A DNA stretch of 64,000 nt from assembly GCA_026709025.1 (NCBI GenBank), contig JAPOTT010000008.1, positions 1 through 64,000 of the forward strand. Direction: 5' to 3'. The notes beneath the pieces are model-generated. The model was not told where the DNA came from, made no database searches, and saw only the letters and a list, made by a program, of their open reading frames with translations. This DNA is from a bacterium. GTDB lineage: Bacteria; Actinomycetota; Acidimicrobiia; Acidimicrobiales; Bin134. Positions 1,442-60,508 of the stretch are shown piece by piece (positions within the stretch are counted from its first letter, which is position 1; the number at the start of each line of letters is the position of its first letter). The translations under genes were made by a program, and so were the position numbers.

Positions 1442-3680
<2,239 letters not shown>

Positions 3681-54797: not shown

Positions 54798-56168
54798 CTA
54801 GACGGTGGCGAGGGTGGGCACTTGGGATAAGGCCGCGGCCAAAGCCTCCTCGCTGAGGTCTAGATCCACCATTGCACCTGAGAGGTAGCTCTCATAAGCG
54901 GCTAAATCTAGGTGGCCATGACCGCACATAGCGGTGAGGATCACCTTGGATTCGCCAGATTCCTTACAGGCCAGAGCTTCCCGCACCGCGGCGGCGATGG
55001 CGTGGGTGGGTTCTGGTGCAGGCACAATACCCTCGGTGCGAGCAAACTGAAGACCCGCCGCAAAGCACTCCGACTGCGAGATGGACACCGCCTCCACCAA
55101 ACCCAAATCGTAGATGTGCGACACCAACGGCGACATGCCGTGATAGCGCAAACCACCAGCATGAATGGGGTCGGGAATGAAGCTGTGACCTAAGGTGTGC
55201 ATCTTCAACAAGGGGGTCATCTGAGCAGTGTCGCCAAAATCGTAGCGGTACTCACCCTTTGTCAACGTGGGACAAGCTGCCGGTTCCACGCAACGAACCG
55301 TTGGGTTCATGCGCCCCGCTAGCTTCTCCCGCAAAAAGGGAAACGACAGCCCCCCAAAGTTAGAACCACCACCGGTACATCCCACCAACACATCAGGGGT
55401 TTCACCTACCAAAGCTAGCTGCTTGAGGGCCTCTTCGCCGATGATGGTTTGGTGCAACAACACGTGGTTCAAAACGCTGCCTAAGGCATAGCGCGTGTTG
55501 GGGTCTGCGCCAGCAACAGCCACCGCCTCGCTAATAGCAATGCCCAGCGAACCATCGTGATCTGGGTTCTCGGCACGCAGCTTACGCCCGTAATCTGTTA
55601 CATCCGACGGGCTGGAATGCACCTTAGCGCCCCATATCTCCATCATGGTTTTACGGTAAGGCTTTTGACGATAAGACGCTGCCACCTGCCACACCTCACA
55701 AGCCATGTTGTACTGAGCACAGGCAAACGCCAGAGCACTCCCCCACTGTCCGGCTCCAGTTTCAGTGGTAAGGCGAGATACCCCCTCTTGGTGGTTGTAG
55801 TAAGCCTGAGGCACCGCTGTGTTGGGCTTGTGAGACCCTGCGGGGCTGACACCTTCATACTTGTAGAAGATCTTGGCTGGGGTGTCTAAGGCTTTTTCTA
55901 ACCTTCTAGCCCGAAATAATGGGCTGGGTCTCCACAAACGCAGCACATCCAACACGCCACCGGGAATATCCACATAAGACTCACCGGTAACCTCCTGCAT
56001 GATTAGCTCCATCGGGAACAACGGAGCCAGATCGTCTGGCCCGGCAGGCTCTAGGGTTCCCGGATGTAGCGGCGGAGGGGGCGGCGATGGCAGGTCGGGA
56101 ATGATGTTGTACCACTGCGTGGGCAACTCAGAATCTGCCAAACTCACCCGATAATAATCTTCAGCCAT
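54798..56168 (-). CDS. trpB: Tryptophan synthase beta-like protein, TrpB2 type
   Basis: 456-aa PLP enzyme of the TrpB2 subfamily, condensing indole with serine; TrpB2 proteins often act without TrpA. The PLP lysine is in [11 protein letters not shown] (about 113); the phosphate-binding loop is [12 protein letters not shown] and [12 protein letters not shown] is conserved. The N-terminal extension [20 protein letters not shown] is typical of TrpB2. It follows the SelW-like gene by 77 nt, a spacer holding a 15-bp repeat array and the Shine-Dalgarno AAGGAGAAAG. Confidence 0.92.
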
Positions 56169-56184
56169 GCGCTTTCTCCTTACA

Positions 56185-56245
56185 AGATATGGTCAGAACA
56201 GATATGGTCAGAACAGTTATGTTCAGAACAAATTGTGGTCAGAGC
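56185..56245. repeat. 15-bp tandem repeat, about four copies
   Basis: AGATATGGTCAGAAC at 56185-56199 and 56200-56214 (exact), 56215-56229 and about 56230-56245 (degenerate). It fills the spacer between the SelW-like gene and trpB2 and abuts the SelW stop codon. Confidence 0.9.
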
Positions 56246-56518
56246 TTACGTGCCATAAGGGGAGACTCCTTGAGCGTACTTGGCCCCAAAGAGTTCTAGC
56301 ACCTCGCCTGGATGGGCATGCCTGCCGGTGACACCTTTGGAATAGAGCAAATCCCCGTTTACCGTCACATCAAAGATGCCCGAACCACCCGTTGTGAGGA
56401 TTAGGGATTCAATGATGTGCTGATAGGTTTTCAACAAATCCGTAGCAGCGCTCACGGCGTGCTCTGAATAGTCTCAAGGGACACAGTAGGTTATAGAGAT
56501 AGTGTGTTTTTGAGTCAT
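56246..56518 (-). CDS. SelW/Rdx-family selenoprotein with C-V-P-U motif (Sec15 encoded by UGA)
   Basis: 90-aa thioredoxin-like Rdx protein. From ATG 56518 the frame reads ITYCVPUDYSEHAV, with TGA at 56474-56476 as Sec15 and Cys12 as partner. It then continues with LLKTYQHIIESLILTTGGSG, FDVTVNGDLLYSK and GRHAHPGEVLELF, which is the full SelW-like pattern. Without recoding only a fragment from an internal GTG at 56455 would be predicted, lacking the redox motif. The ATG overlaps the stop of the alpha/beta hydrolase as ATGA, supporting this start. Rdx proteins are thought to act in thiol redox control. A candidate SECIS hairpin follows the UGA. Confidence 0.93.
56446..56466 (-). promoter_or_regulatory. 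Candidate bacterial SECIS hairpin after UGA 56474-56476
   Basis: On the minus strand CAGAGCAC pairs with GT-GA-GCGCTG (one A·G mismatch and a 2-nt bulge) around the apical loop GCC at 56458-56456. The loop starts 15 nt after the UGA and begins with G, as expected for bacterial SECIS. Stem quality is moderate. Confidence 0.5.
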
Positions 56519-57468
56519 GACAGCAGCGTAGCGCCAAGTCGTTCAAATTGACGACGCAGCCAGTCTTTCTGATCGGCGTTGTAGCGTTTGGCAGCGTCTA
56601 GATGGCTAAACAGGTTCATACCATGTGGCACCCCAGAGTACACATGCAACTCGGTTGGCACGCCTGCGCCATAAAGCCGCATGGCGTACTCGGTAGCCTC
56701 GTCACGAAACCCATCTGCACCCCCCACACACACATAAGCCTCTGGCAACCCACTCAAATCTTCGGCCCTAGCTACAGCCGCAGTACCAGCGATGTTGTCG
56801 GTGCCATACAGATCGCCTAAGTAGTATTTCCACCCAAAGGTGTTAGAGGTTTTGGGCCAGATAAGCAGATCGTCTAGTTGGCTAGACGGGGTAATCTGAC
56901 GGTCGTCCAGCATTGGGCTGTCTAGTAGCTGAAACTGCACTGACACCTCGCCCCTATCGCGTGCCAACAACGCTAGGGCCGCACACAAACCACCTCCTGC
57001 GCTCACTCCAGTTATGCCAATTTTGTTTGGGTCGATGCCTAACTCCACAGCGTTGTCGTAAGTCCACTTCAAACCGGCATAGCAGTCTTCCAGCGCACCG
57101 GGATACGGGGTTTCTGGGGCGAGACGGTATTCCACAGATACCGCTGCTATCTGAAACCGCGCACACCACCTTTCCAACTTGAGGTTGTCCATATCGCAAC
57201 TTCCCAACACATAGCCACCACCATGTATGGAGTACACACATGCCAACCCCTCAGACTCCAGCGTCGAGCCCACCGGGCGATGCACCCTAACGAACACGCC
57301 GTTGGCCTCATCCACCGTGTAATCCGTGCGTTCCACCGCATCGCTGAGCGCTGGTTGCTGCACTGAAATCAAGTTGCGTAGCTTGGGTAGAGCTTCAACG
57401 CTGAGCGGGAGCAAGGGGGCAGTGTGCTTGAGCGCTTCAATTTCGGGAAGCAAACCTACCGTTGCCAT
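56515..57468 (-). CDS. Alpha/beta hydrolase (hormone-sensitive-lipase-like esterase)
   Basis: 317-aa carboxylesterase-type hydrolase. The oxyanion HGGGYVLGS is near residue 88, the nucleophile elbow TGVSAGGG near 163, the acid in GADGFRDEA near 262 and His in GVPHGMNLF near 292: a complete HSL-type triad. Substrate unknown. ATG 57468 is 5 nt after AGGAG; a GTG at 57474 is inside that signal's spacing. Its stop overlaps the SelW start, so the two are probably translationally coupled. Confidence 0.9.
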   Translation of the reverse strand: MATVGLLPEIEALKHTAPLLPLSVEALPKLRNLISVQQPALSDAVERTDYTVDEANGVFVRVHRPVGSTLESEGLACVYSIHGGGYVLGSCDMDNLKLERWCARFQIAAVSVEYRLAPETPYPGALEDCYAGLKWTYDNAVELGIDPNKIGITGVSAGGGLCAALALLARDRGEVSVQFQLLDSPMLDDRQITPSSQLDDLLIWPKTSNTFGWKYYLGDLYGTDNIAGTAAVARAEDLSGLPEAYVCVGGADGFRDEATEYAMRLYGAGVPTELHVYSGVPHGMNLFSHLDAAKRYNADQKDWLRRQFERLGATLLS

Positions 57469-57538
57469 ATCCACTCCTGTACAACAAATCCGCTACAACC
57501 AGCGCACACCAAACATAGCGCAGCAGTGTAATTGAGCT

Positions 57539-59143
57539 TTAGTTGACGCTAAGCCCGGCCACATTTAGGCCCAAGGTGGCCGATTCTGTTAGCTCAACCA
57601 AATTATCTGACTCACAATCCATGGTGCCAGCGGTGGCAGGGTGACGGCGGATCCAACCGCTTGTGGTGGGCGTAACCAACATAAAACAAGACGAAGGCAA
57701 ACCCTCTGCGGGGTTGGTAAGGCCGTGAAGCCCCTGCCCATCCCACTCGGTAATGGTGTTAGCAGCCTCAATCACCAACTCTCGGGTTAAACCTCCGCCG
57801 CTAAGGAACCTGGCGCGGTTCACCGCCTCTTCAAACAAAAGCGCTGAAGCCCAACTAGACAGGCCCACCAAGTTCAACTCGGCATCTGGGTTTGCTAACT
57901 CCCGTAGCGACAGCACATAGCGAACCAACTCCACATTGTGGCCCGCTTCTTCAAACGGCAACATGTTGATGCTCACCCAAACATCTTCGCTTAGCTGCCC
58001 GGCTGGTTCGGCCCAATCTTGGGAATAACAGTCGGCACCGCACTGAAACAACACACCCGAGTTACCTGGCTCATTCTGCCTATCATCATCACCGGTAGCA
58101 TCACCTGTAGAATCACCGGTAGCATCACCTGCAGCGCCCGCACTGCTAGAACCTGCATCAACAGAGCCTGCATCAACAGAGCCTGCATCATCTGCAACAC
58201 CATTGTTCAAAACACTGTCCACAACATTGTCTAGGCGCACCCAAGCATCCAAAAGCTGCAACATCCGCTGGCCGTCTGCAGTCCAAGACACGGCCTGCGC
58301 GCCGCTGCTTTGCAACTCTAGGGCAAGGTCGTCGTAATCTTGATCCACCACATCGGCGGTAGCCTGATGTACATAGACGTAACCAGCGCTAGTGGCTGCT
58401 TCAATCTCACGCTGAGCCTGATAGAAGGCCACCGGCAAATCCAATATCACCGTTGCCACGGCGTTTGTGGCTTGCCCAAATCGCTGTTGCAGGTACTGGG
58501 CAGGTCCGGCATTCCAGATCAGGTTGGAGGTGGGGTTAGACACGAAGGTCACCTCTGATTCCCGCCGGTCGGGACTAAGGGCTGCTGCTGGAAAATCCGG
58601 CAGACGACAAGACGGAGCGTTCAACAAATCCACCCCGTTGCCGTCTCCCAACGCGTAAGAACCTACCAAAGCAAAAATATCGCTCGCACAAGCCTCACGC
58701 ACAGCGCCCCGGTGGTCAAACACGTTGGCATCAAACAACACCACCTCCACATTGCGCCCGGCTAGTCCACCCCGCTCGTTTACCGACACCTCCCAAGCCT
58801 TCATGGCTAACCAAGCAGCCTCGCTACCGCTCGTAACGGCGTTGTCTTCGTTGAGACCAGCAATGTCAGCCACAACACCTAAACGAATCAACTCATCGCT
58901 AAGCCCAGGGGTGGTTGGTTCTAAAGAACCACCACCCAACCCGTTTACACCATCGGCCGACAAAGGCGTGGGAGTAGGCACCGCAGGCGCAGACACTACC
59001 GGGCCCTCCAAATTGGGTTTGTCACAAGCAACGGCCAACAGCGCCAACGCCACAAATAACGCCAGCGCTCGCTGCCCCGACTGCCCCAGCCATCCAGGCT
59101 GCCCCGACTGCCTCAAACGCCACAGCCGATCACCTGCCGACAT
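57539..59143 (-). CDS. Periplasmic-type substrate-binding lipoprotein (Leu/Ile/Val-binding-like)
   Basis: 534-aa lipoprotein (lipobox LLAVAC) with a type I periplasmic binding fold: LIRLGVVADIAG near 85, MKAWEVSVNERGGLAGRNVEVVLFDA, and GLTRELVIEAANTI near the C terminus. A low-complexity Asp/Gly/Ala/Ser insert at about 315-350, encoded by short repeats (about 58080-58200), interrupts the domain. No ABC permease or ATPase genes are adjacent, so the ligand and transport role are unknown. Confidence 0.82.
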   Translation of the reverse strand: MSAGDRLWRLRQSGQPGWLGQSGQRALALFVALALLAVACDKPNLEGPVVSAPAVPTPTPLSADGVNGLGGGSLEPTTPGLSDELIRLGVVADIAGLNEDNAVTSGSEAAWLAMKAWEVSVNERGGLAGRNVEVVLFDANVFDHRGAVREACASDIFALVGSYALGDGNGVDLLNAPSCRLPDFPAAALSPDRRESEVTFVSNPTSNLIWNAGPAQYLQQRFGQATNAVATVILDLPVAFYQAQREIEAATSAGYVYVHQATADVVDQDYDDLALELQSSGAQAVSWTADGQRMLQLLDAWVRLDNVVDSVLNNGVADDAGSVDAGSVDAGSSSAGAAGDATGDSTGDATGDDDRQNEPGNSGVLFQCGADCYSQDWAEPAGQLSEDVWVSINMLPFEEAGHNVELVRYVLSLRELANPDAELNLVGLSSWASALLFEEAVNRARFLSGGGLTRELVIEAANTITEWDGQGLHGLTNPAEGLPSSCFMLVTPTTSGWIRRHPATAGTMDCESDNLVELTESATLGLNVAGLSVN

Positions 59144-59194: not shown

Positions 59195-60508
59195 TTAAGC
59201 CTTAGCTGCGGCGAAACCCAACTCTAAGTCGGCGATGATATCGTCTAGCGTTTCCAACCCAACCGACAGCCGCACAAGGCCAGGGTAAACCCCGGTACTG
59301 CTCTGTTCTTGTTCGGTAAGCTGCGAGTGCGTGGTAGAAGCGGGATGAATCACCAAGCTTCGCACATCACCAATGTTGGCAACGTGGCTGTGCAAGCTCA
59401 GCGCGTTCACAAACTTCTCGCCAGCCTCACGCCCACCAGAGATATGGAATGCTGGCACCGAACCGTAACCCTTATTAGCGGTGTAATGGCTCATGCGCTC
59501 ATGCCACGGGCTGCTAGCAAGACCACCATACTGTACCGCCTCCACCTGATCGTGGGCATCTAGGTACTCGGCCACTGCTTGAGCGTTAGCGCAGTGCCGC
59601 TCCATGCGCATGCTCAGCGTTTCCACTCCTTGCAGGAAATAGAACGCATTTTGCGGAGATATGGCTGCGCCAATATCTCGCAAAAGCTGCACCCGAGCCT
59701 TGATTATGTAAGAGCCGTGGCCCAACGCAGGCCAATAGCTCAAGCCGTGGTAGCTAGGGTCGGGTTCTGTGAAGTTAGCGAAACGACCGCTAGCCCCAAA
59801 GTCAAAGCTTCCACCGTCCACAATCACCCCGCCGATGGAGTTGCCGTGACCTCCGATGAACTTGGTCATGGAATGCACCACAATGTCAGCCCCATAAGCA
59901 AGCGGTTGAATCAAGTACGGCGAAGGCACTGTGTTATCCACCATCAAGGGAATGCCCTCGGCGTGAGCCACTTCAGCCACCCCTGCGATATCTAAGCAAT
60001 CGTTTTTGGGATTGCCGATGGTCTCAGAATAGAACACCTTGGTATTGGCACGAACCGCGTTTTTCCAAGCATCCAAATCGTCGGGATCTTCAATGAACGA
60101 CACCTCAATACCCATCTTTGGCAAGGTGTAATGGAACAGGTTATAGGTTCCCCCATACAACGAGGCAGACGACACCACGTGATCGCCAGATTCTGCCAAG
60201 TTCAAGATGGCTGTCATCTCGGCTGCTTGCCCAGATGCCAGCGCCAAAGCCCCCGGAATGCCGATAGCCGTTGCGGTGCCGCCTTCTAGGGCAGCAATGC
60301 GAGCCTCCAGCACCATTTGAGTGGGGTTCATAATGCGGGTGTAGATGTTGCCCACCTCAGTTAGCCCGAACAACGCTGCAGCATGCTCAGTGTCGCGGAA
60401 CACATAAGAGGTTGTCTGATGAATGGGCACCGCGCGCGACCCTGTAGTGGGATCGGGTTCTTGCCCTGCATGGATTTGCTTGGTTTCAAATCCCCAGTTT
60501 TCGCTCAC
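59195..60508 (-). CDS. metY: O-acetylhomoserine sulfhydrylase
   Basis: 437-aa PLP enzyme of the Cys/Met metabolism family, making homocysteine from O-acetylhomoserine and sulfide. The PLP lysine is in HSMTKFIGGHG (about 210); FETKQIHAGQEPDPTTG and SRAVPIHQTTSYVF are the long-form MetY N terminus. The 52-nt spacer to ilvC leaves no room for a SAM riboswitch. A possible cysteine or cystathionine substrate cannot be excluded, but length and N terminus fit MetY. Confidence 0.92.
   Translation of the reverse strand: MSENWGFETKQIHAGQEPDPTTGSRAVPIHQTTSYVFRDTEHAAALFGLTEVGNIYTRIMNPTQMVLEARIAALEGGTATAIGIPGALALASGQAAEMTAILNLAESGDHVVSSASLYGGTYNLFHYTLPKMGIEVSFIEDPDDLDAWKNAVRANTKVFYSETIGNPKNDCLDIAGVAEVAHAEGIPLMVDNTVPSPYLIQPLAYGADIVVHSMTKFIGGHGNSIGGVIVDGGSFDFGASGRFANFTEPDPSYHGLSYWPALGHGSYIIKARVQLLRDIGAAISPQNAFYFLQGVETLSMRMERHCANAQAVAEYLDAHDQVEAVQYGGLASSPWHERMSHYTANKGYGSVPAFHISGGREAGEKFVNALSLHSHVANIGDVRSLVIHPASTTHSQLTEQEQSSTGVYPGLVRLSVGLETLDDIIADLELGFAAAKA

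Follow-up and report, generated by a model that had tools for sequence, protein, structure and literature searches.

In the window (the whole stretch of DNA that was analysed, 64,000 nucleotides), a TGA codon lies in frame near the start of a short gene. Is this TGA a stop, or does it encode selenocysteine (Sec)? The initial annotation had proposed that the gene begins at an ATG at position 56518, runs through the TGA, and encodes a SelW/Rdx-type selenoprotein with a C-V-P-U redox motif. Our analysis of the reading frame, of the Pfam match across the TGA, of the conservation of the TGA, and of the host's Sec machinery upheld that proposal. We are confident that this is a genuine bacterial SelW-like (Rdx, pfam10262) selenoprotein with a C-V-P-U redox motif, and the TGA is almost certainly read as selenocysteine. 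The SelW-like reading rests on the frame, the protein family, conservation, the Sec machinery, a covarying hairpin, and the predicted fold; the insertion of Sec, the redox cycle, and the substrate are inferred.

A reading frame that continues through TGA

The relevant features, all on the minus strand, are:

56515..57474 (-): alpha/beta hydrolase (Abhydrolase_3 or hormone-sensitive-lipase type esterase), upstream of selW and overlapping its ATG by 4 nt
56246..56518 (-): SelW-like (Rdx family) selenoprotein gene, 90 amino acids, C12-V-P-U15, TAA stop
56483..56485 (-): TGT, Cys12 of the CxxU motif; 16 genomes of the genus have TGA (Sec) at this codon
56474..56476 (-): in-frame TGA, predicted Sec codon 15; invariant across the aligned homologues, with Cys in a homologue from Caldilineaceae (L030)
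56444..56463 (-): predicted bacterial SECIS hairpin, AGCACGC-CGUGA-GCGcUGCU, with one bulged C; supported by covariation
56246..56455 (-): 69-amino-acid fragment with a GTG start, from standard ORF calling, without the redox site
54798..56168 (-): TrpB2-type PLP enzyme, downstream of selW after a 77-nt gap

If TGA is translated as U, then 56246-56518 on the minus strand encodes MTQKHTISITYCVPUDYSEHAVSAATDLLKTYQHIIESLILTTGGSGIFDVTVNGDLLYSKGVTGRHAHPGEVLELFGAKYAQGVSPYGT, followed by TAA. As initially annotated, this longer frame contains exactly one in-frame TGA (56474-56476), and its ATG (56518-56516) shares 4 nt with the stop codon of the esterase (ATGA, 56515-56518). It had also been expected that standard annotation would report just the 69-amino-acid fragment from an internal GTG, and indeed, the ordinary list of reading frames has only 56246-56455.

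Family and predicted fold

An alignment with the Rdx and SelW families had been suggested as a check. The match to Pfam Rdx (PF10262) covers residues 6-76, so it spans the TGA, and it scores 55.2 bits (E = 8.4e-15; the curated cut-off is 22.6 bits). The 90-amino-acid protein is also above the cut-off for TIGR02174 (41.3 vs. 34.2). It scores below the curated cut-off for NF041051 (SelTWH_Campy, a narrower equivalog from Campylobacter; 60.8 vs. 88 bits), so we do not assign it to that equivalog.

We predicted the structure with AlphaFold2, using 32 homologues and with Sec written as Cys. In the model (mean pLDDT of 95.5), C12-V-P-U15 comes directly after the first strand (residues 5-12) and is followed by a helix (residues 18-35). 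The best Foldseek matches are SelW-related proteins from bacteria (2oka, 2fa8, 2obk, 3dex, and 2p0g), and mouse SelW (2npb) is a weaker match. A sequence search returns the same SelW-related structure entries. These solved bacterial proteins are like the window's protein in fold (TM of 0.7-0.8) but unlike it in sequence (21-29% identity).

By analogy to the family, the window's protein is most likely a small thiol/selenol oxidoreductase. Its predicted fold is thioredoxin-like, and the motif sits in the loop that joins the first strand to the first helix. The protein would cycle via a selenenylsulfide between Cys12 and Sec15: Sec15 would provide the attacking selenol, and its partner, Cys12, would resolve the intermediate by forming the selenenylsulfide.

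Conservation of the TGA and the selenocysteine machinery

Across the Acidimicrobiia, 153 of 395 genomes have matches to the SelW-like gene. Every homologue among the matches listed (about 150, with the five weakest matches outside of this tally) has the in-frame TGA, and there are conserved residues both before and after it. Forms with Cys are rare; for example, the Caldilineaceae homologue has CASC, with Cys where the window has Sec. More broadly, standard ORF calling loses the redox site of this gene, which more than a third of the sampled Acidimicrobiia genomes carry, and reading through the TGA rescues the annotation.

The gene tends to occur together with selA. We found a strong match to selA in 141 of the 153 genomes that have the gene and in 118 of the 242 genomes that do not (P = 1e-20, Fisher exact test, which ignores phylogeny). 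The 12 gene-bearing genomes that lack a strong match are mostly incomplete MAGs.

Genomes of the f34 family (around 1 Mb; e.g., G029 and G112; loci L089 and L085) are reduced and keep the SelW-like gene, and the motif is CIVU in the two members that we read directly. Many f34 genomes show two matches to selA.

The host genome encodes the machinery that had been listed as a check, and whose absence would have counted against a selenoprotein. selA and selB are adjacent, on contig C13. The same contig carries tRNA-Sec (66.9 bits; ARAGORN calls it as tRNA-SeC with anticodon tca). SelD (G000:C49:65241-66197; in locus L032 at about 2400-2440, minus strand) has its own in-frame TGA, in the N-terminal glycine-rich motif, which reads G-A-G-U-A-G-K-L-G-P. 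This is the usual place of Sec in SelD.

A covarying hairpin after the TGA

SECIS prediction was another suggested check. In the window, a hairpin follows the TGA; its loop (CGUGA) has 5 nt, includes G, and starts 17 nt after the TGA. The folding energy of this hairpin is unexceptional (z of -0.5), and the evidence for it is comparative. Nearly all homologues can form a short stem with a five-base loop (e.g., CGUGA or CGUGC), again starting at a distance of 17 bases from the TGA, and in the window's genus, the stem has a one-base bulge.

We analyzed the 6-bp stem in 53 distinct sequences. Overall, 88.4% of the pair cells are paired. Double-sided changes are found in 27 cells, vs. 9.6 in shuffles, and none of 500 shuffles reached the observed covariation score. 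When the partner strand is slid, the signal is lost (the scores are far lower). The fourth pair from the outside is CG in 38 sequences, UA in 15, and unpaired in none. When we permuted codons that share a column and an amino acid class, the pairing dropped in all 2,000 trials and never reached what was observed, so constraint on the protein alone does not explain how well the stem is preserved.

A guanosine in a small apical loop, shortly downstream of the UGA, is how bacterial SECIS elements have been described (PMC1088965). Judging from the covariation, the hairpin is a predicted bacterial SECIS. In the mechanism that we propose, SelB with Sec-tRNA-Sec would decode the UGA at 56474-56476 as selenocysteine under the direction of the hairpin that follows 17 nt later. 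Together, the conserved TGA, the co-occurrence with selA, and the covarying hairpin identify the gene's product as a genuine SelW-like selenoprotein.

A predicted double-selenocysteine form in the same genus

The gene is present in 20 of the 22 genomes from the window's genus. Four of these have CVPU (the window's genome, G181, G396, and G407). The other 16 (including L018, L020, and L021) have two in-frame TGAs in the motif, which would give U-V-P-U, and coding is intact on both sides. On the tree, the UVPU sequences form one group (support 93/78; 92% of bootstrap trees) inside the CVPU sequences, and its sister is the window's sequence together with G181. The tree thus places the change from Cys to Sec at a single origin. 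The change takes one base, from TGT in the CVPU sisters to TGA. The regions that flank the two UGAs are under purifying selection (pN/pS of 0.37 before and 0.29 after). tRNA-Sec scores above the cut-off in 17 of the 22 genomes, including the single-contig UVPU genomes G320 and G410, and selA was found in all four of the UVPU genomes in the class sample.

Each of the 15 distinct UVPU proteins carries a Cys at residue 64 or 66 (in three of them, at 64 and 65), and just 1 of the 64 other proteins (L072) has Cys in this loop. Because the UVPU proteins are close relatives, this should be counted as one or two events, not 15. In thioredoxin folds, the loop past the last strand is near the active site.

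The UVPU genes have one evident hairpin, and the first UGA is 12 nt further out, with 29 nt to the loop. We tentatively suggest that this one hairpin might serve two UGAs that are 12 nt apart, that U-V-P-U might form a diselenide, and that the loop Cys (at 64 or 66, and gained or moved within the clade) might take over as the resolving thiol. These would make up a three-residue Se-Se-S redox center. A diselenide could form within the motif, and the Cys at residues 64-66, after the last strand, might be either a replacement or a further resolving thiol.

We also considered if an extended lower stem (GUUC...GAAC) that is specific to UVPU genes makes the first UGA readable. The same letters are found in CVPU genes too, such as L026, and we set the idea aside.

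The genus offers a system for testing if a single bacterial SECIS is able to direct two UGAs that lie close together. Also, the CVPU and UVPU sisters, which have the same hairpin, are a natural before-and-after comparison for why a bacterium pays for a second Sec.

Neighboring genes

The initial annotation placed selW in an operon with the esterase and trpB2. Both are real neighbors and are encoded on the strand of selW, but relatives do not share this arrangement. trpB2 had no match among the 42 relatives' loci that we searched. In G396, an esterase-like C-terminus lies directly upstream of the SelW-like gene, and in the other relatives we examined, the esterase is not adjacent. In G181 (L017), the genes upstream are orthologues of the window's genes at 57539-59143 and 59195-60508, and the esterase and trpB2 are absent. 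The UVPU congeners have different neighbors from the window's: presumably, an enoyl-CoA-hydratase-like gene precedes the SelW-like gene, and a P450-like gene follows it.

Within the gap between selW and trpB2 (56169-56245) are several near-repeats of TTCTGACCATATCTG. The gene at 57539-59143 encodes a putative substrate-binding-like protein, with low-complexity repeats around 57991-58203 (minus strand; SVDAGSVDAGS..GDATGDSTGDATGD).

Alternative explanations

If the TGA were a true stop, then the locus would be a pseudogene, or it would encode the 69-amino-acid protein from the internal GTG, which is what standard ORF calling gives. We consider this to be extremely unlikely. The 69-amino-acid form would be without the first strand and the motif, yet in every homologue from the class among the matches listed, the TGA is kept and its flanking residues are conserved. 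The co-occurrence with selA also argues against a stop, as do the covarying hairpin and the purifying selection that acts before and after the TGAs in the sister (UVPU) clade, and we rejected the pseudogene because of those last two observations. Or, UGA might be reassigned to another amino acid, such as Trp, in this host, which would have undercut the initial annotation. Reassignment would also account for an in-frame TGA that is followed by conserved protein sequence. But of the window's 33 long reading frames, 10 end in TGA, the overlapping esterase among them, so UGA is not generally reassigned in this host. Given that the host also has the complete Sec machinery, and that the Caldilineaceae homologue has Cys at this position, the probability of reassignment is close to nil.

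Within the selenoprotein reading, it could be that the UVPU genomes decode the second UGA efficiently but not the first, which would instead act as a leaky stop or have a regulatory role. The spacing between a SECIS and its UGA matters, and there is a single evident hairpin, from which the first UGA is 12 nt more distant than the second (29 nt to the loop), so we count this in favor of a leaky first UGA. Still, we think that this is unlikely: both TGAs are retained in 16 genomes from a single clade, where the frame is intact and selection is purifying before and after them; every UVPU protein has the additional Cys in the loop; and UxxU is accepted in other families of bacterial selenoproteins (PMC9312934, PMC13188914). 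As for the neighboring genes, the shared strand, the 4-nt overlap, and the esterase-like C-terminus in G396 would fit a functional operon of the esterase, selW, and trpB2 for one pathway. This is very unlikely, as the upstream genes in G181 match those further along in the window without the esterase or trpB2, the UVPU congeners have other neighbors, and a conserved linkage was not seen in the loci that we examined. Because the linkage is not conserved, we rejected the operon as a guide, and it says little about the function of selW.

Comparison to known selenoproteins

The window's gene itself belongs to a known type, the SelW-like selenoproteins. SelW-like proteins with CxxU are among the most abundant selenoproteins of marine bacteria; they were described from the Sargasso Sea, from GOS, and in surveys of complete genomes (PMC1088965, PMC2398784, PMC1794560). 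The window's gene shares CxxU with them, as well as the small Rdx domain, the SECIS just past the UGA, and the rarity of Cys forms in organisms that use Sec. It differs in belonging to a particular subfamily from Acidimicrobiia, with CVPU-[DN]-Y, whose congeneric members have UVPU and a Cys in the loop.

In tables of prokaryotic selenoproteins, SELENOW-like proteins have CxxU only, with one Sec, and UxxU is given for other families (PMC9312934, PMC13188914). These include Prx-like proteins, mercuric-reductase/metal-binding proteins, and FmdB (PMC2398784, PMC13188914). Like the UVPU proteins, they have two Sec in one bacterial UxxU motif, but they are not from the Rdx family. A literature search that was limited to open-licence papers did not find a bacterial SelW with UxxU. 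As far as the searched literature goes, SelW with UVPU is a new bacterial variant.

Among eukaryotes, SELENOW with UxxU is reported from amphioxus and from Ostreococcus lucimarinus (PMC7539508). Those proteins and the UVPU congeners have the same change from Cys to Sec in the CxxU motif of SelW. In the eukaryotes, the SECIS is in the 3' UTR (PMC1088965), while in the bacterial UVPU genes, one hairpin in the coding region would need to serve two UGAs. We infer that the bacterial UVPU form arose independently of the eukaryotic SELENOW proteins with UxxU.
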